The position numbers and the translations under genes were made by a program. The notes beneath the pieces were generated by a model that ran no database searches, had not been told where the DNA came from, and saw only the letters and a program-made list of their open reading frames with translations. A stretch of 37,347 nt of DNA, from positions 1 to 37,347 of IMG/VR virus record IMGVR_UViG_3300031565_000155, one strand, 5' to 3'. Of the stretch, positions 131 to 37,347 are shown one piece after another. The first letter of the stretch is position 1; every line of letters starts with the position of its first letter. This DNA is from a virus.

Positions 131-216
131 GCGAGCCCGCAACCGTACTGCAACCACCACTTCTGGCGACAGGTGCGGAACGTGCCGAGTTCGGATTGGG
201 ATATTTGAAACCTCAT
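1..216 (-). CDS. N-terminal part of Cas4/AddB-like PD-(D/E)XK nuclease (continues at 37347-36357)
   Basis: This is the first 72 codons of the nuclease whose remainder is at the other end of the window. Translation starts at ATG 216-214, overlapping the TGA of the upstream gene as ATGA. The N-terminus (MRFQISQSELGTFRTCRQKW) is typical of RecB-family/Cas4 nucleases: a Ser-rich start, a Thr-Phe-x-x-Cys motif and a Trp-rich stretch, followed by a G-x3-H motif (G40, H44). Joined across the overlap, the protein is 358 aa. Cys16 would be the single N-terminal ligand of the Fe-S cluster completed by three C-terminal cysteines. The sequence runs off the window edge, but the terminal overlap makes the join certain. 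Confidence 0.85.
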   Translation of the reverse strand, partial: MRFQISQSELGTFRTCRQKWWLQYGCGLASKTSSDAMHTGSIAHLGIASLYESMRNGVAKVPALAMALDAVA

Positions 217-950
217 GCCTCACCTCCCTTCCCGTACGCACTCGGCGGCAAGAGGTTTTCCAACGCCGCCGAGATGGGATTCGCGTTGCCGCCGAACGGT
301 TTCCAGTCACCGATCTCGGAGTACAACCCGTCACCGTCGCGAACTCCCGACGCCGACTGTTGCGTCGGCCCCGTCGCAACGTGTTCGTGGTTCACCATCA
401 CGCAACTGGTCGCCTTGCCTTCGAAGTCCACCGCAGTCGCGTCAACAACGACCGTGACTGCAACGGCGTCGCACTCCGTGACCGTTTCCTCGATCAGCCT
501 GATGCTGATCATGCTCATGGCCGCATCGAACAACGCGTCCAGCTTTGCGTGCAGCGGGTTCTGGCTGGGGTCGTCCAGCATGTTCGCCGCTTGCGCGACG
601 TCGATGACAGCGGACTCCATGTCCACGTTCTTGACGGCCCACTCGCGAGCCACTTCGATCATGCGTTGCGCTTCCAAGTTCAGGAGCACGGGTCCAACTC
701 CGCAGTCGGGTTTGTTTCCGTCGGGGTAGTTGCGAGCCCAGACGATCGCGACGCTGCGGATCGGCTTGACGACCGCGTAGTCCCGAAGGTACGCCAGCAC
801 TTCCGCGAGCGCGGCGTCGGAGCCCTCTGCGGACAACAATGCCGAGCCGTGCTTGCGGAAGAGTGCTTCGACGTTCAACCCGCCGTCGGCGTTGTATACG
901 TCGTCGCCGTTGTGTGTGTGGAAGTAATCCGTTGGTGCTTTGTGTTTCAT
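213..950 (-). CDS. Hypothetical protein, 245 aa
   Basis: I do not recognise this protein. It starts at ATG 950, preceded by GGATCAGACAATG, the start context shared by its upstream neighbours. It ends in a TGA overlapping the ATG of the nuclease gene, so the two are probably translationally coupled. The sequence is soluble and mildly acidic, with no membrane segment or clear catalytic motif. A central Val/Ala-rich stretch (about residues 140-175) looks like a small beta-alpha domain. Its position between the MoxR/VWA module and an Fe-S nuclease suggests an early function in DNA processing or host takeover, but that is inference. Confidence 0.75.
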   Translation of the reverse strand: MKHKAPTDYFHTHNGDDVYNADGGLNVEALFRKHGSALLSAEGSDAALAEVLAYLRDYAVVKPIRSVAIVWARNYPDGNKPDCGVGPVLLNLEAQRMIEVAREWAVKNVDMESAVIDVAQAANMLDDPSQNPLHAKLDALFDAAMSMISIRLIEETVTECDAVAVTVVVDATAVDFEGKATSCVMVNHEHVATGPTQQSASGVRDGDGLYSEIGDWKPFGGNANPISAALENLLPPSAYGKGGEA

Positions 951-975: not shown

Positions 976-2013
976 TTAGAAGGTGAGGTTGTCGAGTGCT
1001 TCGGTCGGGGACGGCGCAGGCGCCTGCTCCGGTTCGGGGTCAGTGTCAGTGTCGGTCACAACGACGGTGACCTCTTGGACGTCCTTGCGCTTGCGCTTCG
1101 GCTTGCTTGCGACGCGAGCCGTCACGCCATGTTCGAGGTTCAGCGCTTCCAGCTTCGCGGACGCGAGTGCGATCGACAGCGCTTCGGCTTTGTTTCCGAG
1201 AATCGCACGGACGCTTTCCACCCGCAGTTCGATCTCGGCAAGGTCGGAGCGCTTGCGCTGGACGGTTCCCTCTCGGGTGTTACTCGCGCCTGCGGTCAGC
1301 TTGCCGATCTGAGCGGTGACCTCTTTGATCTCCGCATCGATCGACGAGGCGATTGCTCGCGCCGCCTGCGCCTTGCTTTCGGCGGTGTCATAGATCGGAA
1401 GCGCGGTCAGTTCGCACGACCCGATCCCCTCCAGCACGTTCGCGAAGTTGCGAATGGTCGCAGCCCCCACGGTCGGAACCCAGTACAGGCTCCCGCGCTT
1501 GAGTCGCGTTCCGCCGACGAACTCCATTGCCCGTGTCACCATGCGGTGGACGTCGCGATAGTCGGCGTGGTCGGTGTGGAACGCGAAACGATTCTCGACC
1601 TGCTTGCACAGTGCGTCGGTCGTTGTGTCCCCCTTGGCCGTGTACTCGATCTTGAGGTCGTCGTGGTCGTCCACGTAGAGAACCGCGCAGGTGACCTTCT
1701 TGGCGTCGTGCCCCTCCCCCTCTGAGCGGAACACATGGAACGCACGGTCGCGTTTCTTCGGAGTCTGCAAGGAGTAGCCCGACGGCGCATAACTTTCGAC
1801 GTCGCGGCGTGCGCGGCCGAGTGCACCCTGCGAACCGATCTCTTCCGCGATCAGGTTCTCGGGGAGTCCCGCGTCCGTGAGCGCTTGGCGAATCGCCAGG
1901 CGGCTGTATGCGTTGCTCTCCACTTCGGAGATCTCGGGCCACACAATGTCCCCGATGTGTTGACCTGCGGTGTCTTCAAGCAGGCGTGTGATTTCGTTCG
2001 CTGTGGTTTTCAT
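976..2013 (-). CDS. MoxR/VWA-module associated protein, 345 aa
   Basis: Third gene of an apparent cassette with the VWA protein and MoxR ATPase just upstream. ATG 2013 is preferred over a TTG six codons earlier, because the GAAAGGA Shine-Dalgarno lies 8-10 bases before the ATG and would otherwise be coding. The N-terminal half (about 1-200) appears globular and contains aromatic- and Asp-rich stretches. Residues 210-290 are Ala/Glu/Lys-rich and predicted helical or coiled coil. The C-terminus is a basic KPKRKRK patch followed by an acidic Thr/Asp/Pro tail. No enzyme motif is visible. Phage MoxR-VWA pairs are often followed by such a protein, so it may be the substrate adaptor or target, but no function is proven. 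Confidence 0.7.
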   Translation of the reverse strand: MKTTANEITRLLEDTAGQHIGDIVWPEISEVESNAYSRLAIRQALTDAGLPENLIAEEIGSQGALGRARRDVESYAPSGYSLQTPKKRDRAFHVFRSEGEGHDAKKVTCAVLYVDDHDDLKIEYTAKGDTTTDALCKQVENRFAFHTDHADYRDVHRMVTRAMEFVGGTRLKRGSLYWVPTVGAATIRNFANVLEGIGSCELTALPIYDTAESKAQAARAIASSIDAEIKEVTAQIGKLTAGASNTREGTVQRKRSDLAEIELRVESVRAILGNKAEALSIALASAKLEALNLEHGVTARVASKPKRKRKDVQEVTVVVTDTDTDPEPEQAPAPSPTEALDNLTF

Positions 2014-2034: not shown

Positions 2035-3522
2035 TCAGATTGCAAAGAGGGTGGCGAATGGTTCCGCGCTTGTGTTTTCAATGTCGTCGTAGGTGACTTC
2101 GGTGGCGGACGCGAAGTCCACCGCGTCGTAACTGTCCGTGGTGTTGTTGTACTGACCGGGTGCGGACGTTCCGATGCCGACGAAGTGAAGTTCGACGCCC
2201 GCCTTCTTGAAGTCTGCAACCTGTTGCTTCCAGTCCACTTGGTCCTCACCGTCAGTGAGCAGGACGACGTCGGCCTTCTTGAACGCCTTCTCTTCCGAGA
2301 TGAAGTTGCGAGCGTGTTCAATGGCTGTCTGGATATTCGTTCCACCGTCTGCACGGCGAGCGATGATTGCGGCGAGCGCTTTCGGGTCGGGCTTGCCAGG
2401 CTTCGCGAACTTCGTCGTGGCCTGAACGATGTGGTCGAACTCGATCACGGCGAACACACGGCGTTGCTTGCGTGCGATCTCCATCATCGAAAGCATCGCC
2501 GCGATCGCGTACTCGTCGGAGTCACCGTCCATGCTGCCCGACTTGTCGATGCAGAAAACGATCGGCCCCTTTTCGTTCACCGCGACCTTGACGTCGAACT
2601 GCAACGCCGCGTGGTCCATCACGTTCGCCCACAACATCGGACCCATGACGGGATCGCCCATCTTCACTCGCTCACTCGGGAGCAACTGCATCAGGTCACC
2701 GCCGCGAGTAATGTCCTCGATGGCGCCAGGCCCGTGCTTCTTTTCCTTCTGCGCTTTGCGTGCGGACTCGCGCATGCGTCCCGCCATCTTCGCGATGCGC
2801 GCCATCTTGTCGCCCTTGACGCGGGACAACGACCGCTTGACGTCGCGGACGTCCTTGACGCTCAGGTCGTTTCCGGCTCCGACCTTCGCAACCATGGCGG
2901 TTGCTTCGTCGCAGGCTTCCTGATCCTTCGTCGCGCCCGCTATCGCGGCCTTCATGCGCTTGACCGCTCCCCGTTCCCTCGCCAGCTTGAACTCGCCAGG
3001 CTGGTTGCCCGAACCCGTGCCGCTGCCAGGTTCCCCGTCGTCGCCAGGCTCGCCGTCTTCCGACTCACCCTCTCCGCCCTGTCCAGGCTCGCCACGCTGC
3101 GGGTTGTCAGAGCCCGCAGGCGGCTCCGGCTTGTCTTCGTTCTGCTGTGCAACGTCGGGCGGCGTGACGGCGAAGGCCATCGCGTCGGCAACGCGACCAG
3201 CAAGGCGAGCGGCGTAAATGTCATCGCCCTCGGTTCCCTTGATTGCTTCGTTCCACTCGGGCAGGTCGCGGACCTTCTTCAACAGGTCGTCGGCCCAGCC
3301 CTTGTGCTCGCTCGGGACTTCCACTTCGGAGTTCCCGATACCGTACGCGTCCGCGAACAGTTCGCGAACCATCGTTCCCCACACGGCGCTGTCGGGGTGC
3401 TTTGCGTTTGCTGCCTTGAGCGTGTGCTCTGCGGTCGCGTTCTCTTTGTACAGGAGTCGCGTCCACGGGTTCGTTCCAACTGCGAGGTCGTGGTCGAGTG
3501 CTTTACGTTTTGCGTTTGCCAT
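2035..3522 (-). CDS. VWA-domain protein, ViaA/CobT-like partner of MoxR ATPase
   Basis: 495 aa, ATG 3522 with a GAAAGGA Shine-Dalgarno. Residues 1-120 are helical. Residues 125-178 are a Gly/Glu/Asp/Pro-rich linker like that of CobT. Residues 185-265 are Lys/Arg-rich helices. A von Willebrand factor A domain occupies about 318-485 with a complete MIDAS metal site: D326-x-S328-x-S330 (DKSGSM), T395 (GGTN) and D424 (LLTDGED). Proteins of this build work with MoxR/RavA/CobS AAA+ ATPases, the VWA domain presenting a metal-dependent binding surface. The ATPase gene lies 24 bp upstream, so the two probably form one complex. Real cobalt chelation is unlikely, since no cobalamin genes are present. 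Confidence 0.85.
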   Translation of the reverse strand: MANAKRKALDHDLAVGTNPWTRLLYKENATAEHTLKAANAKHPDSAVWGTMVRELFADAYGIGNSEVEVPSEHKGWADDLLKKVRDLPEWNEAIKGTEGDDIYAARLAGRVADAMAFAVTPPDVAQQNEDKPEPPAGSDNPQRGEPGQGGEGESEDGEPGDDGEPGSGTGSGNQPGEFKLARERGAVKRMKAAIAGATKDQEACDEATAMVAKVGAGNDLSVKDVRDVKRSLSRVKGDKMARIAKMAGRMRESARKAQKEKKHGPGAIEDITRGGDLMQLLPSERVKMGDPVMGPMLWANVMDHAALQFDVKVAVNEKGPIVFCIDKSGSMDGDSDEYAIAAMLSMMEIARKQRRVFAVIEFDHIVQATTKFAKPGKPDPKALAAIIARRADGGTNIQTAIEHARNFISEEKAFKKADVVLLTDGEDQVDWKQQVADFKKAGVELHFVGIGTSAPGQYNNTTDSYDAVDFASATEVTYDDIENTSAEPFATLFAI

Positions 3523-3546
3523 TGTGTTTTCCTTTCAGTCGTTCAG

Positions 3547-4731
3547 TTACAGGGTTTCGGCGTCGAACTTCGATTCATGCGCGGATTTGATCGTGGCCTT
3601 CATCGCCTCGAACTCAGTGGCCATCGCTTCCAGCACCGCGTCGATTCGCTTCGCGGCTTTTCCGCTGGTTGCTTCGCGGCGGCTGCGGATCTTTTCCCCA
3701 GCGTTCTTGAACACGGTCGGTGCGCGGAACATTTCGTCCGAGCGTCCCGTGTCGATCAACCGCTGTGCTTCGGTGCGTGCGGCGTTGTGGTACTCGCGGC
3801 ACTCCGCGACGAGCGGGTTGATCGCGGTCTTGGCGGCCGTCTCAATCTTTTCAACGTGGTCGCGTTCGTTCCACATGACGGGAACGAGTGCGGTGAAATG
3901 TTCCTCATCGATTTCGTCGTCCCCCGCGAGGTACGCCTTCGCTTGCAGCACCCGCACGGCCTTCACCCAACGTCGGTCGCCGTGTTCGATGCCGTCGCGT
4001 TCCAACTGCTCGCGGAACGCAAGCAACGAGGACGCGACGTCCTTGCTGAGTTCAATCGTCGCGACGTCTTCCAGCATCTGGTCCCACTCGGACTCACTGA
4101 TACGAATCGCAACGTCCCCGACTGCGCCCTTGCGACGGTCACCCGACGCGGCTGCTCGGCTGAACAGTTCGCGTCGGTTCTGCTTGGACTGGATCGGCTT
4201 GACCCAGTGTCGAAGCATGTAGCGGTCCCACATCGCGCCCAAGCTTTCGTCTTCGGGCATTTCGTTCGATGCGCTCACCACCATCTTGAGAGGAATCTTA
4301 TTGATCACGCCGCCATTCTCGAAGGTGCCCTCACACATGACCGGCAACAGGCAGTTGACGGCTGCGACACACTTCCAGATCTCGTCGGCGAAAACCATCT
4401 TGGCGCGGGGCAGTCGGTTCGCCGTGTTGCGTTCGTACTTGTCCTTCTGCATCGCGGTGTAGGAGTAGGGTCCCAAGAACTGCTCCGGCGTCGTGAACTT
4501 GTTGAACACAATTTCGAAATAGTCTTCGCCCTTGACGTCGAGGATGGTGGCCAGCTTGCGGAGCAGTTCCGACTTGCCGGTCCCCGCAGGTCCGAGCAGG
4601 CACGCATGCTCACCGGAGCAGAGTGCGAGCAGCAGGACGTCGATCTCCACGTCGCGTTCGATGAACGCTGCGGACAGTTCGGTGCGGGCGGTCTGAAACT
4701 TCGTGCGGATGTTGTTGTTGATGGTTGCCAT
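3547..4731 (-). CDS. MoxR-family AAA+ ATPase, RavA-like
   Basis: 394 aa from ATG 4731, which has a GGAG Shine-Dalgarno and the AAGACAATG context; an in-frame upstream start at 4797 lacks support. Walker A is GPAGTGKS (47-54) and Walker B is VFADE (113-117), followed by IWK. The stretch TTPEQFLGPYS (80-90), the LPRAKMVFADEIWK region, and a sensor-1 segment ending SASNEMPEDESL closely follow the Escherichia coli RavA pattern. The C-terminal ~180 residues are helical, as in RavA-type lid domains. MoxR ATPases remodel protein complexes together with VWA partners, and one lies directly downstream. Both are expected to be expressed early, close to the putative promoter region. Confidence 0.88.
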   Translation of the reverse strand: MATINNNIRTKFQTARTELSAAFIERDVEIDVLLLALCSGEHACLLGPAGTGKSELLRKLATILDVKGEDYFEIVFNKFTTPEQFLGPYSYTAMQKDKYERNTANRLPRAKMVFADEIWKCVAAVNCLLPVMCEGTFENGGVINKIPLKMVVSASNEMPEDESLGAMWDRYMLRHWVKPIQSKQNRRELFSRAAASGDRRKGAVGDVAIRISESEWDQMLEDVATIELSKDVASSLLAFREQLERDGIEHGDRRWVKAVRVLQAKAYLAGDDEIDEEHFTALVPVMWNERDHVEKIETAAKTAINPLVAECREYHNAARTEAQRLIDTGRSDEMFRAPTVFKNAGEKIRSRREATSGKAAKRIDAVLEAMATEFEAMKATIKSAHESKFDAETL

Positions 4732-4777
4732 TGTCTTGTTCTCCAATTGAATCAAAAGTTTTCGGTTGTAAAGGTTT

Positions 4778-5311
4778 TCAGTTGAACGAAAGTGCATCGA
4801 GGTCGGTGAGTTGCTTCTTCAGGTCTGCAAGTTGCTTCGCTTGCGCGTCGGCAACCTGCTCGGGTGTGTACGCCGCACGTTGCGGTGTGTTGCGTTCGTA
4901 TACGTTGCAACCCTCGGAGTGCCCCTCCTCTTCGGAGAGTGAGCCGCAATCGCAGTTCTCATCGACCGGCGGCGCATAGTGCTCGCCGTCGGGCACTGTG
5001 GCGGTCGCTCGGTAGTACCAGGACTTGCCACCGCCGCGCTTGAATCGCTCGACGCGTCCCAACTTCAAGCTGCGAGCCAGTGCGCGGTCAACAACCCGCG
5101 ACAGGTTCGCGGCTCGCGTCCGATAGCAGCCCATCATCTTGGCAACGTCGTCGGCGCTGAACAGTCGCGACCACTCGCCGCTGCTAATGTGTGACGTGAT
5201 TCGCTTCGTGGTCACCCCCATCGGGAACTGATCCACTGTCGCGTACACGCTGGCTCCGAGTACATCGAAGCAGGCTTGCTGTTTCGGTATGTCGAACAGT
5301 TCGGCCTTCAT
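4778..5311 (-). CDS. Putative winged-helix DNA-binding protein with Cys motif
   Basis: 177 aa; ATG 5311 overlaps the TGA of the 63-aa gene as ATGA. Residues 15-102 look like a winged-helix domain: helical segments with an R-T-R-A-A-N-L-S-R recognition-like helix (about 64-72), then a beta-hairpin rich in Lys/Arg/Gly ending in KSWYYRA. A short Cys cluster (C120, C122, C135) within an acidic loop could bind a metal. A C-terminal coiled coil (about 150-172) suggests dimerisation. As the second gene after the candidate control region it may be an early transcriptional regulator. No family could be named with confidence. Confidence 0.65.
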   Translation of the reverse strand: MKAELFDIPKQQACFDVLGASVYATVDQFPMGVTTKRITSHISSGEWSRLFSADDVAKMMGCYRTRAANLSRVVDRALARSLKLGRVERFKRGGGKSWYYRATATVPDGEHYAPPVDENCDCGSLSEEEGHSEGCNVYERNTPQRAAYTPEQVADAQAKQLADLKKQLTDLDALSFN

Positions 5312-5499
5312 ACCAGGCTCCAGTTTGCTTGCAATCGCTTGCGTCCCGTCTTCGCTGCAACTTCACGCATCAGGTCGTATGCCACTTGCTTGACGTCGGT
5401 GCGCGTTGCCACGACCGTTCGCTCCGCGATGTACTTGCTGTGCGACGACAGGACGACGATGCGCCACTTGCTCGGTCGTTTTTGTTTCGTTCGATTCAT
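5308..5499 (-). CDS. Small basic protein, 63 aa, first early gene
   Basis: Starts at ATG 5499, preceded by GGAGATACAGACAATG, a good Shine-Dalgarno with the shared AGACAATG context. The frame stays open upstream to 5691, but that part covers the inverted repeat and is not protein-like. The product is Lys/Arg-rich (start MNRTKQKRPSKW), with one likely beta strand (WRIVVLSS) and a helix. It has no recognised family. It is the first gene of the leftward series and is coupled to the next by an ATGA overlap. A small nucleic-acid-binding or host-modulating protein is possible, but this rests on charge and position only. Confidence 0.65.
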   Translation of the reverse strand: MNRTKQKRPSKWRIVVLSSHSKYIAERTVVATRTDVKQVAYDLMREVAAKTGRKRLQANWSLV

Positions 5500-5536
5500 T
5501 GTCTGTATCTCCGTTTGGGTTTTCAGTTCGCAGTTA

Positions 5537-5579
5537 CGTGTATCAGTGAAGCGAGTCGGTCCCGCTTCACTGATACACG
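5537..5579. promoter_or_regulatory. Perfect 17-bp inverted repeat upstream of first early gene
   Basis: Arms CGTGTATCAGTGAAGCG (5537-5553) and its exact reverse complement (5563-5579) flank a 9-base loop. It lies 38-80 bases ahead of the ATG at 5499. No U tract follows on either strand, so it is not a simple terminator. A weak -35-like TTGAGA (minus strand, 5600-5595) sits 17-19 bases before a poor -10-like hexamer within the right arm, so it could be a repressor operator overlapping a promoter, or a 5'-UTR hairpin. The repeat is certain; its role is inferred. Confidence 0.6.
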
Positions 5580-6223
5580 CCGTCGAGGCGCTACTCTCAA
5601 CGGACGCGTTTTGTTTTGCGACGTACCCACTCGGAGGATTGCAGAGCCCTGTTCCCGAGGTTTGAATCAGTCGTGCTTTACGAACAGTCAACGCGATTTG
5701 TTTACGTGTCGTGCGTTGCTGTCGTCAGTGTCGTCGCAAAGAACTTTGTGCTTGCGCTATGCCCCGGTGCGGGACGTTGAAGGCGCGTGGTGTCTGGGAC
5801 CGTGTCAGCTACCGACAAGATATTGAGTAGAAGCGACCGCGTGTGTTGTTCACAGCGTCCCGTGTGACGGCTTACGTGGGGGTCGGCTTACTCTGCGTCC
5901 GGTGGACGACTTTTCTCGTATCGATTCGGCTTGCTGGCTAGAGGTTCGTTTTGCGAACGAATCACTGTGACGGGATATTTTTCTGGAAGCGCTCGTCGGT
6001 GCGCTTGATCTGTTCGTCTGTGGTGCGGTGTTTCAAAACACTCGCTGTGGAACTCGGTGGTCTGCGAAGGCTACGCTCCTCTCGGCGACGCTCCCCCGCT
6101 CACACGGAGCAGACTTGGAACTGATCAGTTATTCGAATGTCAGAGAACCCGATACACAAAGTACAGAAGTGACCGAGGACTGCAAATCCCTTGTTCCTAT
6201 AATTGAAGTAAGCAAAGGAGTCT

Positions 6224-6245
6224 GGGGGGGGTCTGGGGGGGGTGG
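6224..6245 (+). repeat. G-tract repeat, possible G-quadruplex
   Basis: Two copies of a TCT + G8 unit side by side (G runs 6224-6231 and 6235-6242), followed by TGG. With two 8-G runs, four G-triplets are available, so an intramolecular quadruplex is possible on the plus strand. The minus strand carries the matching C8 tracts. It lies in the control region and has no coding explanation. Confidence 0.5.
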
Positions 6246-6314
6246 ATTGTGGGCCGCTTTTTGGGCTGTTTTCTCGCTACAGGACTTAGGATCACGGTTA
6301 GGTGCGATCCCCCG

Positions 6315-6343
6315 AAAAGGGCTCCTAGGACGCTCCTGGGAGC
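6315..6343 (-). terminator. Putative rho-independent terminator of late genes
   Basis: Read on the minus strand: a 10-bp stem with one mismatch (GCTCCCAGGA / TCCTAGGAGC; plus-strand arms 6334-6343 and 6321-6330), a 3-base loop (6331-6333), then CC and four T. It lies about 220 bp after the last late gene in the transcription direction. The short T run makes it only a fair terminator; a T8 run behind a weak 4-bp stem (6368-6395) just before it could help. Confidence 0.4.
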
Positions 6344-6562
6344 ATGCCTGGGCTCGATTGGTTTGCGAAAAAAAATGCCCGCCTAACGTGTGGCGATCGC
6401 ACCGTTTTCCGAGAGTCTGAAAAGTATCTACCGTGGCAAAATCGCGGAAACCGAAGCGTCCAGATTTCGCTCACCTATAGGCGAACAGGGAGCCGGAGGG
6501 TTTTCGCAAGTGGGTATCACCGAGTATCAATCGACGATCCTCAGCTTGCTGGGATTTGGCTG

Positions 6563-6775
6563 CTAGGCGCTCGCCTCGGGCTCGGTGCCTGCGAGCGGTT
6601 GCGTGATAATCGCGCCGCGTTTCCACAGCCGTTGCAGCATGCGTCCGCGCTCGCGACGGCCAACCCGATCGTTGTCTTGCGCCTGTGCGAGTTCGAACAT
6701 CGCACGCTCCTCTTCCGTCGCTTCGATCGACAACCGCCACCGTCGTTCAATATCCAACATTGTCTTGCGCTTCAC
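6563..6775 (-). CDS. Small charged protein, 70 aa, last late gene
   Basis: Start chosen at GTG 6775, which overlaps the endolysin TGA as GTGA and has GGAGG four bases upstream. An ATG at 6760 in the AAGACAATG context is the alternative (65 aa). The protein is rich in Arg and Glu (RRWRLSIEATEEERAMF, then RRERGRMLQRLW) and is predicted to be two helices with no membrane segment. Unknown function. It follows the endolysin, where phages often place lysis accessories or small late proteins. Confidence 0.6.
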   Translation of the reverse strand: MKRKTMLDIERRWRLSIEATEEERAMFELAQAQDNDRVGRRERGRMLQRLWKRGAIITQPLAGTEPEASA

Positions 6776-7284
6776 GTTGCCTCCGGAAGTCTGTAGCCGA
6801 TCACGCGGCCGAGTGGATACGCCTTCACGCTCACCGAATTTCCTTGATTTCCGCCGAGCACGCGAACGGTGTCACCGCCGCCGCCGCGACCAACAAAAAA
6901 CGCAACGTGGCCCGATGCAGGCTTCGGCGGGCGCGAGAACACAACAACGCAACCAGGCACAGGCGCGTCGATGCCCTTGCCCCAATCGAGCCACGACCGC
7001 GCACGGGCGCTGTTGGTGCCTGCAATGCCCGCTTCCTTGAAACACCAGTTCACGAACGAGGAGCACCACGGGGTTTCGTCGTCGTCGGCACTCAGGCCCG
7101 TGGTCGCGTGGTACTCGACCACTCGCGGGTTGTGTTCGTCGCCTCTGATTTCGCGTTCCCCGAGTTCGCCGTTCGCGATCTCGATCCACGTCGGGAAAAC
7201 CTCGTGGTCCACCGCGTCGTCCTCAAGGATCGCTTGCAGGTCCTCGATCACATCTTCCAGCGCCCTTCGTTGCTCGCGATTCAT
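6772..7284 (-). CDS. Endolysin, TIGR02594/CHAP-like NlpC/P60-type peptidase
   Basis: 170 aa; ATG 7284 overlaps the upstream TGA as ATGA. An N-terminal helix (1-28) precedes the catalytic domain, which follows the phage TIGR02594 pattern: PTWIEIANGE-x-G (31-42), the Cys motif TPWCSSFVNWC with catalytic C74, ARSWLDWG (95-102), GHVAFF with catalytic H126, and VLGGNQGN (142-149). Such enzymes cleave peptide bonds in peptidoglycan at the end of infection. There is no signal peptide, so export should depend on the holin encoded directly upstream. The family assignment is strong; the exact bond cleaved is not visible. Confidence 0.85.
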   Translation of the reverse strand: MNREQRRALEDVIEDLQAILEDDAVDHEVFPTWIEIANGELGEREIRGDEHNPRVVEYHATTGLSADDDETPWCSSFVNWCFKEAGIAGTNSARARSWLDWGKGIDAPVPGCVVVFSRPPKPASGHVAFFVGRGGGGDTVRVLGGNQGNSVSVKAYPLGRVIGYRLPEAT

Positions 7285-28297: not shown

Positions 28298-28899
28298 AGG
28301 ATTTGGTAGAACTGGTTGCCACGTTTGCCATTCGCCAGTTCGGTGCCGGGGATCACCAGCACTCGCCATCGTCCTGCCGCTACGGCCCGCTGTGCGCGCC
28401 TGACGTCGGCGTCCAAGCGAGTAGCGCCCCAATGGTCGGCGCGGCCTCTGGAGGGATCCTTGACCCGTCCTGCAGCCCATTCGTCCGTGCGCTCGACGAC
28501 AGCCCGCCAGCGAGGCAAGTGAGCAGACCACGACACATGGCTCGGCCAGCCACTCGGGGGCGACCCGTCCGTTGTGAGCGCTCGCACCCAGAGTTGGCGC
28601 CGTGACGGCGTGCGGTTACCCAATCCAGCGCAATACGACCGCACAGCATCGGTGAAACCAATCGCGGGAAACTTTGATTGCAGTGCGCGCCAGCGTCGAG
28701 CCAGCACCCAAGCCATCACGTCGTGGTCGGTTGTCGCGATCCATCCTGCCTCTGCTACCTGTGCGCGAGACAACCACAGCCGCGCCCTCGGCGTCCACTG
28801 TTCAGCGGGTATCGGCAATGCGTGGGTGTCAGTCGCGAACAGCGCAAGCAGGAGCACAGCCAGAGCAACGCGCCGCATTGTATCGGGTGGGGTGGTCAC
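28294..28899 (-). CDS. Secreted or membrane-anchored protein, possible cell-wall hydrolase
   Basis: 201 aa from GTG 28899 (GTGA overlap with the glycosyltransferase stop); ATG 28878 is an alternative start. Residues 8-27 form a signal peptide or signal anchor (MRRVALAVLLLALFATDTHA). The mature part opens with helices containing VAEAGW (a Glu that could be catalytic) and later DHDVMAWVLARRW, a layout reminiscent of lysozyme/transglycosylase or SleB-like hydrolases. It has many Arg and Trp. The hydrolase idea is tentative. It neighbours HNH and terminase genes, not the endolysin. Confidence 0.55.
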   Translation of the reverse strand: MTTPPDTMRRVALAVLLLALFATDTHALPIPAEQWTPRARLWLSRAQVAEAGWIATTDHDVMAWVLARRWRALQSKFPAIGFTDAVRSYCAGLGNRTPSRRQLWVRALTTDGSPPSGWPSHVSWSAHLPRWRAVVERTDEWAAGRVKDPSRGRADHWGATRLDADVRRAQRAVAAGRWRVLVIPGTELANGKRGNQFYQIL

Positions 28900-29768
28900 T
28901 CGACCTCCACGATCCGCATGCCGTACTCGTCGGCGCCGTCAGCGATCTCGACGTCGGGGCGACGCACCAGTTTGTTCTTGCGGAACGGGCGATAGTCCAC
29001 GTGGTGGTGCCAGCGCTTGAACTTCCACACAAGTCGCGACACATCGGGGTGCATTGCCACCTGCATGCGTGACTTCGGCAGAGTTCCCTCCTTGTCGTAG
29101 AACTCTCCGGTGTTCCCGCCCTTCAAGGTGGAAGTCCGCACCTTGTTTTGCAGGAACGCATTGAACTGGATGGTGCACCAGCCGTCCTTCAACATTCGAA
29201 GCGACAGGTCGGTGTCCTCGTTGTAGCGCCCACGCCAACGATAGCTCAGGTCGTTGCGGATCAGATTGCAGGAGTAAATGCGGGTGTTCAGGATGAACGG
29301 CGGGAGTTTCTGTTTGCGCTTTGCGAACATCAGGTAGTTCGGTCCGGCCATGCTGACGTTGCGATAGCGGAGCACAAAGTCCTCCATGCAACGGAACGCC
29401 GTGCCGTCACTCACCTGCACACGCAGGTTGCGGTTCAATCGCCAGAAACCTTGAATGTTGTCGTCCATCACCCAATGCCACGCGTGACCGCCAGCGACGG
29501 AGTGGTCCCACGCAAAGTTGCGAGCCGCGCCGGGACCCTTGCTCTTGGTGCTGCCGAGTTTGTCGAACGTGTCGTAGCGGTCCTGATACGATTGCGGCAG
29601 CACCAGCACCGTTCCGTACGCTGGATCACATGCGGCCGCGTATGCGTCGCGTTCGGGTTGCTCGACGATCACATGGTACGGGACGCGCATTGACTCCAGC
29701 GCGGACAGCGTCAGCCGAACGTCGGCGCGTCCCTTGCTCGGGATGTACAGCGGGAACCTAGGATTCAT
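28896..29768 (-). CDS. TET-associated-type glycosyltransferase (TAGT)
   Basis: 290 aa, ATG 29768 overlapping the ParB-like gene by 11 bp. Motifs in order: LYIPSKGR (7-14), a VEQPERDAY segment (35-43), GAARN (80-84), HWVMDDNIQGFWR (98-110) with the nucleotide-sugar-binding DDN, YNEDTDLSLRMLKDGW (182-197), and KGGNTGEFY (216-224). These match the TAGT group of GT-A-like glycosyltransferases described with TET/JBP oxygenases in phages, which add sugars to hydroxymethylated bases. No TET/JBP-like protein was found here, so the acceptor is unknown: another modified base, or a virion protein. Confidence 0.8.
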   Translation of the reverse strand: MNPRFPLYIPSKGRADVRLTLSALESMRVPYHVIVEQPERDAYAAACDPAYGTVLVLPQSYQDRYDTFDKLGSTKSKGPGAARNFAWDHSVAGGHAWHWVMDDNIQGFWRLNRNLRVQVSDGTAFRCMEDFVLRYRNVSMAGPNYLMFAKRKQKLPPFILNTRIYSCNLIRNDLSYRWRGRYNEDTDLSLRMLKDGWCTIQFNAFLQNKVRTSTLKGGNTGEFYDKEGTLPKSRMQVAMHPDVSRLVWKFKRWHHHVDYRPFRKNKLVRRPDVEIADGADEYGMRIVEVE

Positions 29769-31825: not shown

Positions 31826-32432
31826 GAAACTCCTCCTGGGTTTTCGTAGACGACGGGCGTTCCATCGTCAGCATCCACGTCGGGAGCAACGCACGGTCGG
31901 TCCCCCACTGCTGGCAGTGTTCGCGGTAGTTCTCGGGGCACGGGACCGGCGCCACTACCCCATACTCCGCCTTCATGTACGACCGCAAGCGGGAAATGCG
32001 CGTGGAGAGGGATTCGTCCCCGATCTTCTCGGACCAGTACAGCGCACAGCAAATGGTTTCGAGGTTGCGGGTCGTCACGGCTTCCGCGTAGATCACCCGC
32101 TCCTTCCAGAACATGAAGTCCGCGTAAAGTTCCTTGTCGGTCGCCGTTGCTTTGCTGTGACTGCCTGCACGCAACCTGTCGTACAGGTTCATCGGGTCAA
32201 TCGGCAGCGTCGCCGGTGGTTGCATGAACGCTGGCCGACGAATCGTGTGCAGGTCGGCGTCCACTTCCGCCGCGTACAGGTTCCAGATCAACATGCGCTG
32301 GTCCTGCTTGTGCTTCCGAAACTCTGCGGTGTCTTTCGGATTGAACGCCAGCTTCGCGAACTCACGGACTATTTTTTGATAACGCTGCGAGCTTGGTATT
32401 GATCCGGTTCCACTCTTCGTTGTTGCCTGCAT
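31605..32432 (-). CDS. Hypothetical protein, up to 275 aa, with doubtful C-terminus
   Basis: ATG 32432 with AGGGAGG upstream. Residues 1-200 look genuine: helical, aromatic-rich, with RMLIWNLYAAEVDADLHTI and ADFMFWKERVIYAEAVTTRN, but no known motif. From about residue 203 the frame overlaps the 74-aa gene, its composition turns to Gly/Arg/Asp repeats and third-position GC drops to 46%, as if non-coding. Its TGA forms ATGA with the methyltransferase. Either the tail is a real overlapping extension, or an indel in the contig hides a shorter natural stop. Confidence 0.6.
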   Translation of the reverse strand: MQATTKSGTGSIPSSQRYQKIVREFAKLAFNPKDTAEFRKHKQDQRMLIWNLYAAEVDADLHTIRRPAFMQPPATLPIDPMNLYDRLRAGSHSKATATDKELYADFMFWKERVIYAEAVTTRNLETICCALYWSEKIGDESLSTRISRLRSYMKAEYGVVAPVPCPENYREHCQQWGTDRALLPTWMLTMERPSSTKTQEEFHAERESQAQADRRVSGHDHSQVLRRVVDAIGDGGGDVGVELPRDGDGDAATTGRPEPESSERGSGAGQSDLDL

Positions 32433-33078
32433 CACGGGCCTCCCTTAGTTCACGTTTCAGTTGATCGGTTTCGGTGTCGGGTTCTTGAGTAAGTGACTGT
32501 GCAGGTGTGTCGCCTGCGCGTTCGATAAATCCTTCCAGCTTCGACCCGTTGCGACAGATCAAGGTCAGGTCGTCATAGCCACCTGTCGCGTGGAACTCGC
32601 TTGCAACGCAACCGTCAATGGCGCGTTGGATTTGTGCTGCCGTGTACCCCTGCCGCAGCCGTGCGCGGAGTACGCGTGCCCGCTCCGGTGTGAGTCGGGC
32701 CTGCTCGTGGCCCGTCGCCCGCTGCCAGTATCCGAACAGCGCTCCGACGAGCGCTCGGGCTGTATCTCGGGGGTCGGGCAGGGAGCCCGATTCCGGGTCC
32801 TGGGAGCCCCTGTGAGCCGTTCTACCCCCGATTACAGTGAGTTTAGCGTGGGCACGCCCCGTGGGCTTGGAGCCCATCTGGGAGCCAGCGCCCAGGGAGC
32901 CCTCAGCGCCCCTCTGGGGCCGTCCCCCTGGGGGAGCGTCGAGCCCATCTCGGTGCTGGCGAGCAGGCGCCCGGTCAGCCCAGGGAGCGAGCGCGGCCAC
33001 GATGGCTGCACGGTCGTCCCCGTTCAGTTTGTTCGCTCGCGACAGCACCGCCGCGATTGATCGTAGGAGTTCGTCCAT
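32362..33078 (-). CDS. Replication-initiator/helicase-loader-like protein, 238 aa
   Basis: ATG 33078 chosen; a GTG at 33159 would add an Arg-rich N-terminus of doubtful value. There is no good Shine-Dalgarno for either. Residues 1-38 are helical, and 40-105 form a Gly/Ser/Pro-rich linker encoded by the iteron-like repeats. The C-terminal part (108-190) has ALFGYWQRATGHEQARLTPERARVL, then RLRQGYTAAQIQRAIDGC and a YDDLTLICRNGSKLEGFIERA ending, the pattern of the C-terminal domain of phage O/DnaT-like replication proteins. As in lambda O, the origin may lie inside its own gene. Probably recruits the host helicase. Confidence 0.7.
   Translation of the reverse strand: MDELLRSIAAVLSRANKLNGDDRAAIVAALAPWADRAPARQHRDGLDAPPGGRPQRGAEGSLGAGSQMGSKPTGRAHAKLTVIGGRTAHRGSQDPESGSLPDPRDTARALVGALFGYWQRATGHEQARLTPERARVLRARLRQGYTAAQIQRAIDGCVASEFHATGGYDDLTLICRNGSKLEGFIERAGDTPAQSLTQEPDTETDQLKRELREARDAGNNEEWNRINTKLAALSKNSP
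32779..32989. repeat. Iteron-like repeat cluster, candidate replication origin
   Basis: Within the linker-coding part of the initiator-like gene, about seven copies of a GGGAGCC-type word (variants CAGGGAGCCC, CTGGGAGCC, TTGGAGCCC) occur at 32779, 32799, 32867, 32878, 32892, 32939 and 32979. The segment AGCCCATCT appears twice (32871 and 32942). A less GC-rich interval (about 32820-32850) separates the outer copies. The repeats are visible; the origin role is inferred from their place in a replication gene. Confidence 0.55.
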
Positions 33079-33203
33079 TTTTTCAAACGCAAATGCGGCG
33101 AGCAGTCGAGCCCCGCGATTCCGAAGGGTGCGCGGGTTCTCTGACGGATCAGATCGCACACAACCGAATCGCAGGCTCGACCGCTCGCCGCAATCGCACT
33201 CCG

Positions 33204-33725
33204 CTAAAAGGGGACGTCCTCGTCAGCCGGTGGCGGGGGCGCGTCCCCCTCCATCGACAGGTCTGCGCTCGCCACCCATTCGTTCATGGCGTCGCGTTCT
33301 TCGGTCGTCAGGCGATGTTCAAAGAAGGAGATCCCCGCGTACACGTTTCCGTCTCGCGTCTCCGTCTTGAACTTCGCCTTGAAGGGGCGACGCAGGAACG
33401 CCTCCCGTACCGCATCGTCGTCGCTCAGGTCGAACGCGTCCGCGTAACCCATCGCCGCGCACATTGCGCCGATGCGCCCGTAGCTTTCCTTCGTTATGTA
33501 CGCCCGTTGCGTGAACAGCTTCCCGACGACCTGCGCTTTCGGCTCGCCGTCGATGACTACGCCGCTGAGTTTCAAGAACTCCTTGCCGTTCACGTTGGCC
33601 TGGCGCCCCGTGTACTTGGTAAACGCCACGATGTAGTCCCCTGGGATTTGCAGGAACTTGCTCGCGTCGGCGGTCGTCGCGTCCGGCGTGAACTTGCTTG
33701 GGTCGAATGTGTTTGTCTCAGTCAT
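33204..33725 (-). CDS. Single-stranded DNA-binding (SSB-like) protein
   Basis: 173 aa, ATG 33725 overlapping the ATPase stop by 8 bp. Beta-rich centre (about 30-150) with strands such as YIVAFTKYTGRQANVNGKEF and KAKFKTETRDGNVYAGISFF, in an order compatible with an OB fold. The C-terminus is Pro/Asp/Glu-rich and ends DEDVPF (168-173), the acidic tip with terminal Phe used by bacterial SSBs to recruit partner proteins. It lies directly after a Sak4-like recombinase, an arrangement seen for annealing/SSB pairs. Confidence 0.75.
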   Translation of the reverse strand: MTETNTFDPSKFTPDATTADASKFLQIPGDYIVAFTKYTGRQANVNGKEFLKLSGVVIDGEPKAQVVGKLFTQRAYITKESYGRIGAMCAAMGYADAFDLSDDDAVREAFLRRPFKAKFKTETRDGNVYAGISFFEHRLTTEERDAMNEWVASADLSMEGDAPPPPADEDVPF

Positions 33726-34536
33726 TTTCCTTCTCCTTCGTTTCGGTTGTCTGGTTGTCGAGTCTCTTGATCCACGAGGTCATGTTCGCCACTTCGACGT
33801 CGCGCAACGGGCGCAACGGTTTGGTCATAACGTTGTCGGGTCCGGCGAACTGAACGCTGTGGACCATCACGGTCTCCTCTCCCGACTTGCGCTTCGCGGC
33901 AACGCGAGCGACGCCGACCGCGTTGCACGCCGCGCCGATGATGGCGGGGAGTGAGCGCATCGGAAGCGCTGGACCGATGTGTCGCTCGCCCTCCACCTCT
34001 TTGTCGTCGAGCAACGCGAGGAACAAACAGTGGTAGGGGAGGTCGCGGCACATGCGAACGAACGAACGCCCGCGTGTAGCCATCGCACCCCAATGCCGCA
34101 TCGTCGTGTCGGGCAGGCCGTCCTTCGCGTTCTTCAACGGCGACTGTTCAACGATGCCTTCCCAAATCAGTTGCATGATGTCGGTCAGGCTATCGAACAC
34201 GATTGTTTTCGGTCGCAGGTAGGGCAACGCATCGATCGCCGCCTTCGCTTCCGCCTCGGGCAACTGGTCGCCGATCAGCTTTGCGATCGGCGCATCATCC
34301 GACTGCAACACATGAACCGCCTTCGCCAGTTCGTTCTTGTCTTTGATCCAGAACGTCGGGGGCATGGGGACGCCGAGCCGCTTCGCGTGGTCGCGCACGG
34401 TCTCGAATCCCTGACGCTCTGACAAGAGGATCAGCGGGTCCGGTGCGCTGACGCCGAGTGCGGTTTTGCCCGCGCCCGTTTGTCCGTACACCAGAATGTT
34501 TAGGTTTCGTTCGGTCTGTTGTTCATTCAGGAACAT
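33718..34536 (-). CDS. Sak4-like RecA-fold ATPase (recombinase)
   Basis: 272 aa, ATG 34536, overlapping the previous gene by 14 bp. Walker A GQTGAGKT (18-25) close to the N-terminus and Walker B TIVFDSLTD (111-119), then a conserved RHWGAMATRGRSFVRMCRDLPYH-type segment and a later strand with LALLDDKE. Lack of N- and C-terminal RecA extensions and the short length identify the Sak4 (single-strand annealing/strand-exchange) group, or the closely related phage AAA_24 proteins. Works with the SSB and nuclease genes near it in recombination-linked replication. Confidence 0.8.
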   Translation of the reverse strand: MFLNEQQTERNLNILVYGQTGAGKTALGVSAPDPLILLSERQGFETVRDHAKRLGVPMPPTFWIKDKNELAKAVHVLQSDDAPIAKLIGDQLPEAEAKAAIDALPYLRPKTIVFDSLTDIMQLIWEGIVEQSPLKNAKDGLPDTTMRHWGAMATRGRSFVRMCRDLPYHCLFLALLDDKEVEGERHIGPALPMRSLPAIIGAACNAVGVARVAAKRKSGEETVMVHSVQFAGPDNVMTKPLRPLRDVEVANMTSWIKRLDNQTTETKEKEND

Positions 34537-35902: not shown

Positions 35903-36360
35903 GTTCCGGTGTCCTTGAGTTGTTGGTTTAGCCGATTGAGTTCTTCAAACTGTTTGTGCCACGGGCCGATCTCGGACAGTGCCCGTTGGTCGATCACGGT
36001 CCAGCACGCGGTGTTGCGAACGGACTGCAAGATTTCCCAACGCGTGTAGACGTTGCTGGCGAGGTACTCCACGTCCGTGTTGTCGTAGATCGTCAGGTCG
36101 AGCACCTCGCCGTTGTGTTCCAGCCACGCGTGTTCGATGGGGATCACCGAGTGCGCCCAGCCTTCGTGGTAAGTCACGTCCAGTTCCGTTTCCAGTACGA
36201 ACTTCTGCGAGTTCATAAAGCACTGTTTCAGGAGTGGACGCATGCCGACGCGCCGCAGTTCATCGCGCACCTCTTTCGGATGATGCTTCCACGGGACCTG
36301 TGCCCTGCCAGTGCTCAGGTACTCGCGGATCTTCCGCTCCGCGTACGCCGCGTCCCTCAC
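35899..36360 (-). CDS. Possible Cys-His-Asp (transglutaminase/papain-like) fold protein
   Basis: 153 aa from GTG 36360, overlapping the nuclease stop as GTGA. The order QCFMNS (46-51, C47), YHEGWA (64-69), IEHAWLEHNGEVLDLT (75-90, H77 and D88) fits a cysteine-protease-like triad with a Gly-bounded strand-turn, as in a set of phage/bacterial proteins with 'C..N...EG....HaW....G.v.D.T'. The N-terminal 40 residues are helical and basic. The triad spacing is visible; a catalytic role (protease, amidase or transglutaminase) is inferred. Confidence 0.6.
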   Translation of the reverse strand: MRDAAYAERKIREYLSTGRAQVPWKHHPKEVRDELRRVGMRPLLKQCFMNSQKFVLETELDVTYHEGWAHSVIPIEHAWLEHNGEVLDLTIYDNTDVEYLASNVYTRWEILQSVRNTACWTVIDQRALSEIGPWHKQFEELNRLNQQLKDTGT

Positions 36361-37347
36361 TGGTCCCTCCTGAACAAGCGGTCCATGCGCTCGCTGAATG
36401 AGGTCCCGCGAATATCGTACAGGCTGCCCGTGATGTTGCGGTCAGGACCCATCACGCATGCGTCCCGCATATCGCAGCGAGGGTTCCACGGGTTCGCGCA
36501 GGACGAACCGTTGCGAGTGTGCGCCAGCTTCCCACTCCGGGCTTGACGCAGGAGCCTGGCGTCCGCGATCAGTTCGCTTCGCCACCGTTCGAGTTCTGCC
36601 GCGCTGTACTTCCACTCATGGCGACAGGTCCACTTGTCGAGGATTCTCGGCAACGCCGTCACCACCTCGACCTGCTTGTCCGTGACAGGTATGCCGCGAA
36701 CGTTGACCTGCTCGTCCAGCGCCGCTTGGTAGATTCCGTGGGTTGTGTCGCACGCTGCCGTGCTGACCTTCCCATCCAGGTTCACCTTCGGTTGCTTCGG
36801 ACCGCCGCGACGAATCGCATTGATCACGACGCGGCCGAACTGCGACACCGGCGCCGGGTCGAGCATCGCCGCCGACGCCCACACATAGCCGGGTGTCTGC
36901 GGGTCTACTTCAAACCGTGCATCGAACGAGGTGGCGTCAGAGCCTGTCGTCTTGTGTTCCATGACAACGTACTCGCCCGTGACCCTGTCGCGCAGGACGA
37001 CGTCCGCAGCGCCGATGAACCGTGCGCCTGGCACCGTCTTGCGCTTGCCGTTCTCGCTCCAACGGATCGGAAGCTGGAACGGCTGCTCGACATAGATCAC
37101 CTCGTACTGGATCGCGTCCCTCTCATAGAACGCGTCGGCGTAGCGGGTGACGAGGTCGTCAGCGGTTTCGCCAACCCCCTCGCCCGTGGTGAAGTCGGTG
37201 TCGGTCGCCGTTGACTGCGCAACAGCGTCCAGCGCCATCGCGAGTGCAGGCACCTTCGCCACCCCGTTCCGCATCGACTCATACAAAGACGCGATGCCCA
37301 AGTGTGCGATCGATCCCGTGTGCATCGCGTCGCTTGAGGTTTTCGAC
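36357..37347 (-). CDS. Cas4/AddB-like Fe-S PD-(D/E)XK nuclease (remainder of gene)
   Basis: This is the larger part of the 358-aa nuclease; its first residues are at 1-216. Full-length numbering: the GAADVVL strand carries D144, and VVMEHKTT carries E159 and K161, giving the PD-(D/E)XK core. The C-terminus has C312, C320 and C326 in a CANPWNPRCDMRDAC block which, with N-terminal C16, match the one-plus-three cysteine Fe-S cluster of Cas4 and AddB nuclease domains. A flanking W-rich helix region (RHEWKYSAAELERW) precedes it. Such single-domain nucleases resect DNA ends and pair with annealing proteins such as the Sak4-like product upstream in the operon. Confidence 0.85.
   Translation of the reverse strand, partial: SKTSSDAMHTGSIAHLGIASLYESMRNGVAKVPALAMALDAVAQSTATDTDFTTGEGVGETADDLVTRYADAFYERDAIQYEVIYVEQPFQLPIRWSENGKRKTVPGARFIGAADVVLRDRVTGEYVVMEHKTTGSDATSFDARFEVDPQTPGYVWASAAMLDPAPVSQFGRVVINAIRRGGPKQPKVNLDGKVSTAACDTTHGIYQAALDEQVNVRGIPVTDKQVEVVTALPRILDKWTCRHEWKYSAAELERWRSELIADARLLRQARSGKLAHTRNGSSCANPWNPRCDMRDACVMGPDRNITGSLYDIRGTSFSERMDRLFRRDQ
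37218..37347. repeat. Right copy of terminal overlap
   Basis: Matches 1-130 except at 37221 (A versus G at base 4). In the nuclease frame the difference is a silent third-position change in a Val codon (GTT versus GTC), suggesting a polymorphic population or read error rather than a sequence change with effect. Confidence 0.95.

Follow-up and report, generated by a model that had tools for sequence, protein, structure and literature searches.

A MoxR ATPase, a VWA protein and a DUF6744 protein as a candidate three-part machine in replication regions of phages and plasmids

Phage MoxR-VWA pairs are of a kind known since 2007. Virus-encoded pairs of an ATPase and a VWA protein have been reported in Bacillus phage 0305phi8-36 (PMC2147016) and in haloviruses (PMC7911831), while those of jumbo phages have been proposed to act in virion assembly (PMC7824862). 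In the archaeal spindle-shaped virus ATV, the p618/p892 pair has been assigned to extracellular tail development (PMC4124505). The MoxR-VWA ternary conflict systems (VMAP, FtsH, beta-propeller, iSTAND) add a third component to a MoxR-VWA thresholding switch (Kaur et al., 2020; PMC7159879). Two further pairs serve for comparison: RavA-ViaA of E. coli, in which a RavA-type AAA+ core and lid has a MIDAS-bearing VWA partner encoded next door, and NorQ-NorD, a MoxR ATPase with its VWA partner. The latter works on a host metalloenzyme. Here we describe a viral locus in which a MoxR-VWA pair is followed by a third gene, encoding a protein of the Pfam family DUF6744. The pair is already known, but the MoxR-VWA-DUF6744 trio is not described in the literature searched, which left out most subscription journals and in which the term DUF6744 does not occur.

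The window, by which we mean the whole stretch of DNA analysed, is the IMG/VR virus record IMGVR_UViG_3300031565_000155 (37,347 nt). All of its genes lie on the minus strand. The ATPase, VWA and DUF6744 genes stand in tandem and are read leftwards, after two genes and before one gene without assigned function. The relevant features are as follows, in reading order within each group.

5308..5691, minus strand: gene at the start of the leftward operon, no convincing family (Pfam, PHROGs, NCBIfam and PADLOC searched)
4778..5311, minus strand: gene directly before the ATPase, no family (Pfam, PHROGs, NCBIfam and PADLOC searched)
3547..4731, minus strand: RavA-type MoxR AAA+ ATPase, 394 aa, catalytic residues invariant (PF20030, 3e-40; AAA_lid_8, 3e-11; RavA 3nbx, 1.8e-46)
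2035..3522, minus strand: VWA-domain protein, 495 aa, with complete MIDAS, helical N-terminal half and acidic linker (PF00092, 8.7e-14)
976..2013, minus strand: DUF6744 protein, third component by co-occurrence, with a basic and then acidic tail (PF20529, 5e-12; AlphaFold2 pLDDT 88.9)
213..950, minus strand: gene directly after DUF6744, no family (Pfam, PHROGs, NCBIfam and PADLOC searched)
36357..37325, minus strand: PD-(D/E)XK exonuclease, found after the module in 17 relatives (PF12705, 9.6e-13; phrog_1218, 8.4e-18)
33718..34536, minus strand: Sak4-like ssDNA annealing protein (phrog_124, 8.8e-20; synteny)
33204..33725, minus strand: DUF669 protein (PF05037, 7.7e-8; synteny)
32362..33159, minus strand: O-like replication initiator (phrog_16167, 5.3e-18; synteny)

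A preliminary description of this DNA had placed the ATPase-VWA pair close behind a candidate early promoter. We did not recover that promoter: the promoter and terminator scan gave nothing above chance, and the number of sigma-70-like sites in 4600-6900 was zero. Upstream of the early genes, about 1 kb (5692-6771) holds neither an assigned gene nor a sigma-70-like site; one 12-nt inverted repeat (6301-6312/6392-6403) lies inside this gap. Elsewhere in the window, a gene for a TET-associated glycosyltransferase (28896-29768, minus strand; PF20691, 4.2e-42; phrog_842) suggests that the phage may carry a hypermodified DNA base.

The ATPase, 394 residues long if translation begins at MATINNN (an ATG further upstream, at 4797, is a possible alternative), contains the motifs GPAGTGKS, TPEQFLGPYS, LPRAKMVFADEIWK and SASNEMPE. 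It possesses the Walker A and B, sensor 1, DR and sensor 2 motifs together with a MoxR-type lid, which places it among the MoxR AAA+ proteins, and K53, D116, E117, N156, D169, R170 and R253 are invariant among 53 sequences. Pfam matches were obtained to bpMoxR (PF20030), AAA_5 (5e-16) and AAA_lid_8, the latter two above their cut-offs. When solved-structure sequences were searched, RavA was the sole match (residues 17-294 of the ATPase), which supports the proposed affinity to RavA and speaks against a place among unrelated AAA+ groups. It was nevertheless rejected as a RavA ortholog, since it scored only 184 bits, over residues 17-304, against the 681-bit cut-off of the NF010054 equivalog. 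The protein is shorter than RavA (498 aa), its alignment to solved RavA stops at residue 294, and no match by sequence was found to the C-terminal triple-helix/LARA region of RavA. A tree built from 100 MoxR proteins placed the cellular RavA rows in a fully supported clade of their own, with E. coli YehL far off; the DUF6744-linked rows split into many deep lineages, and the window row sat on a long branch whose position is not settled. Given the equivalog scores below cut-off, the missing LARA match and the separate RavA clade, "RavA-like" is a fair name for this ATPase and "RavA" is not.

The adjacent VWA gene encodes a complete MIDAS, with the DxSxS, T and D metal-site residues at D326, S328, S330, T395 and D424. 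Across 48 phage homologues three of these residues (D326, S330, D424) never vary, and the other two (S328, T395) are at least 90% conserved. The AlphaFold2 model (pLDDT 83) has structural matches that include NorD (9qhd, E 3.1e-5) and the MDN1 MIDAS domain, and the VWA protein of ATV is detectably related to that of the window. Ortholog status was again rejected: the protein reached 51 bits, over the VWA region only, against the 500-bit cut-off of the ViaA equivalog NF008230. Thus, the preliminary description was right that a RavA-type MoxR ATPase and a VWA protein lie side by side with the motifs it quoted, and its RavA/ViaA-like label stands as a statement of likeness, RavA being the nearest solved relative, but not of orthology. 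Its CobT-like label falls away, as neither Pfam nor NCBIfam gave a CobT match for the VWA gene.

The third gene (alternative TTG start at 2031) scored 45.8 bits against the DUF6744 gathering cut-off of 27 bits. Its product is predicted with confidence to adopt a mixed alpha/beta fold whose C-terminal half is helical; in a search of solved folds the best E was 0.043, and the weak, partial XisI-like and ubiquitin-conjugating-enzyme-like matches were treated as no match. Four viral models matched significantly, including two uncharacterised uncultured-phage proteins and one HVTV-1 protein. The last is most probably gp25 (L146:9815-10966), which the DUF6744 sequence profile also recovered (7e-26). 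Conserved positions comprise glycines, aromatics and hydrophobics (GGxYFVP motif) and no polar catalytic set, a pattern more in keeping with an adaptor than with an enzyme. A SAP domain is present in one homologue and a Rho_N domain in another. The family is so divergent that tblastn with the window protein found no matches in cultured phages, and the scan alignment was limited to four members because the alignment of 63 members was too variable for scanning. Among the 63 non-redundant members gathered by the iterated profile, 55 match Pfam DUF6744 independently, indicating that the profile did not drift.

Having characterized the three proteins, we asked how constantly their genes occur together. 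In IMG/VR, scans with the window MoxR or VWA protein as a single sequence gave no matches and alignments were needed; profile scans by MoxR alone then yielded 88 viral loci, or 89 with the window. VWA is present in 86 and DUF6744 in 74 of these 89 loci, with a median span of 4.1 kb, whereas the next commonest neighbour family occurs at 18. Antisense ORF families at 58, 49 and 21 loci, which overlap the module genes, had been dropped by an overlap filter. Gene order varies: with D, M and V for the DUF6744, MoxR and VWA genes, we counted D-M-V at 46 loci, M-V-D at 18 (the window included), M-D-V at seven, and V-M-D and D-V-M at one each. The reverse search, a scan of GTDB genomes by DUF6744 alone, returned 30 loci, at which MoxR accompanies it in 23, VWA in 24 and both in 21. 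Of the seven loci lacking MoxR, five are contigs no longer than 6.2 kb; the other two are L105, which has VWA, and L112, which ends 2.9 kb downstream. Exactly one MoxR match (E ≤1e-8) was found in 10 of 11 DUF6744-bearing genomes examined, and DUF6744 was absent from all 14 cellular control genomes. The surmise that the module includes the third gene is therefore supported in both search directions, and the module idea survives the survey of relatives.

The distance matrices of the three genes, computed for 65 non-redundant full-trio loci, are correlated (Mantel r 0.70-0.76, reached by none of 1000 permutations) at median identities of 18% for DUF6744, 30% for VWA and 37% for MoxR. Shared phage ancestry contributes to this correlation; stable membership despite changing gene order is the stronger argument. 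The isolated Moorella phage MTATph1 carries all three genes. The halovirus HVTV-1 has its DUF6744 gene some 15 kb away from those for the VWA and AAA proteins, and the AAA protein gp59 was missed by the MoxR profile. Thirteen viral loci have MoxR-VWA and no DUF6744 within the stretch fetched. In a distinct MoxR-VWA-RT group of viral loci without DUF6744 (L043, L052, L064, L078, L079, L081, L082, L084, L086 and L087), a polymerase/reverse-transcriptase-like gene of phrog_2825 lies nearby, as does another gene that these loci share.

The trio is not confined to phage genomes. In bacterial genomes, most of the tested genes flanking the DUF6744 loci lack a PHROG match; an integrase, a ParB-like gene and a helicase turned up once each, so that these loci are at most candidate prophages. 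DUF6744 is also encoded on plasmids of Nocardia, Brevibacillus, Alicyclobacillus, Rubrobacter, Streptomyces, Pseudanabaena and Subdoligranulum, with the full trio side by side on Nocardia, Rubrobacter, Brevibacillus and Streptomyces plasmids. The gene table of the complete 96.7-kb Nocardia plasmid, incomplete as such tables are, records genes for conjugation and partition but none for a virion. Three terminase models were silent on the trio plasmids, although the same models miss several phage controls, which makes this silence modest evidence. On the Brevibacillus and Rubrobacter plasmids, dnaN and a helicase lie near the trio. The Listeria plasmid pLIS16 carries a related MoxR gene (L148:15010-15954) followed by an IS30 transposase; VWA and DUF6744 were not detected in the stretch fetched.

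We next considered the genomic setting. In 17 relatives a PD-(D/E)XK exonuclease gene follows the module within about 1.6 kb, accompanied by Sak4 and DUF669 in 16 of them and by an O-like initiator in 11. The same four genes, in the order seen in the relatives, occupy the window's other end (37325-32362). No terminal repeat was found in the window, and operon continuity across the contig ends is inferred from synteny with the relatives. Most likely, the contig edge cuts an operon that would continue at the other end, and the trio would then not be an isolated early cassette. At other DUF6744 loci, recognisable neighbours include DNA polymerase, primase, DnaB, helicases, ligases, thymidylate synthase, RecE and Erf, and the neighbourhood across relatives points to a probable role in DNA replication and recombination. 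In Aphanizomenon phage CL131, in whose record the ATPase is annotated, MoxR-VWA is followed immediately by a gene annotated as a DNA polymerase III beta clamp, and in scaffold MT836594 what appear to be a clamp-like ORF and an SSB-like ORF lie around the pair (L003 and L006 loci); CL131 gp148 contains an LPD29 domain.

These comparisons set the locus apart from its closest described counterparts. It shares with RavA-ViaA the RavA-type core and lid and the neighbouring MIDAS-bearing partner, but it lacks the LARA/triple-helix match and includes a third gene, and cellular RavA keeps a clade of its own. NorQ-NorD, too, has no third DUF6744 partner. The pairs of 0305phi8-36, the group 2.2 jumbo phages, CL131 and the haloviruses have all been reported as two-component; DUF6744 was not found in CL131 by Pfam search, and the group 2.2 jumbo phages differ further in that their VWA is fused to a metallopeptidase. 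In ATV, DUF6744 was not found in the 10.7-kb stretch fetched. The ternary conflict systems come close in having three components, and the window ATPase matches the bpMoxR model, but here the third component is DUF6744, no effector or sensor module was seen, and the setting is that of replication regions of mobile elements.

We propose, at about even confidence, that the trio is one three-part remodelling machine for early DNA metabolism. The MoxR ring, with its intact catalytic motifs, would be powered by ATP. The VWA protein would sit on this ring, as the precedents of RavA-ViaA, NorQD and midasin suggest, and its metal site may grip an acidic residue of the target. DUF6744 would be a dedicated adaptor that selects what is remodelled or anchors the machine on DNA, and the target, judging from genomic position, may be a protein complex of early replication or recombination belonging to the mobile element or to the host. 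More tentatively, and at somewhat below even confidence, trios in tailed phages, prophage-like loci and conjugative plasmids may together constitute an undescribed class of ternary MoxR machines that remodel replication and recombination complexes early in large mobile elements.

Early phage regions also hold counter-defence genes, and position thus cannot separate DNA metabolism from counter-defence. In the window the trio lies near the front of the leftward early operon, and it is common to phages and plasmids, which meet the same defences; SNF2-like helicases (phrog_16/62 type) lie near several modules, and the polyvalent-protein domain LPD29 adjoins MoxR-VWA in CL131. All of this would suit a machine that dismantles or inactivates a host complex, for example a defence complex, on behalf of incoming DNA. 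We nevertheless hold this reading to be rather unlikely, given that no known anti-defence family was found among the genes with Pfam, PHROGs or PADLOC (the last gave short P-loop matches only) and that the module is constantly accompanied by genes for replication and recombination and not by variable counter-defence genes. Conservation of all three components across such divergence also exceeds what most known anti-defence genes display. Host takeover or anti-defence, raised in the preliminary description, is therefore one option among several, and the neighbourhood of the relatives favours DNA replication and recombination instead. A machine directed against competitors, as in superinfection exclusion, would find a model in the thresholding switch of the ternary systems (PMC7159879), given the bpMoxR match and the three components. 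Such a function appears quite unlikely, as Pfam and PADLOC searches gave no VMAP, FtsH, beta-propeller or effector match, toxic or otherwise, around the window trio, and the third component stays the same from locus to locus, unlike a hypervariable effector, and resides in a replication setting.

Virion assembly, in which the pair would be a capsid or tail chaperone, is less likely than a role in DNA metabolism and on balance very unlikely, despite the experimental precedent in ATV (PMC4124505), the related ATV VWA protein and the proposal for jumbo phages (PMC7824862). The module lies in replication regions, away from structural genes, and its presence on plasmids in which virion genes were not detected argues, though it does not prove, that assembly is not the general function. 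That the three genes are mere neighbours, sharing an operon by chance and acting apart, is extremely improbable. Related phages do share gene order, and some DUF6744 genes lie several kb from the pair; yet membership is constant across five gene orders, holds in both search directions, and recurs in phages, in bacterial genomes and on plasmids whose other neighbouring genes differ.

MoxR-VWA machines are common, though their targets are known in few cases. If the proposed remodelling machine exists, a constant third partner, in phages of many hosts and on plasmids where virion genes were not detected, would speak against the view that viral MoxR pairs generally serve virion assembly, and the unannotated Pfam family DUF6744 would become a testable adaptor. 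The trio may thus offer a tractable route to what AAA+ remodelling does for the DNA of mobile elements.
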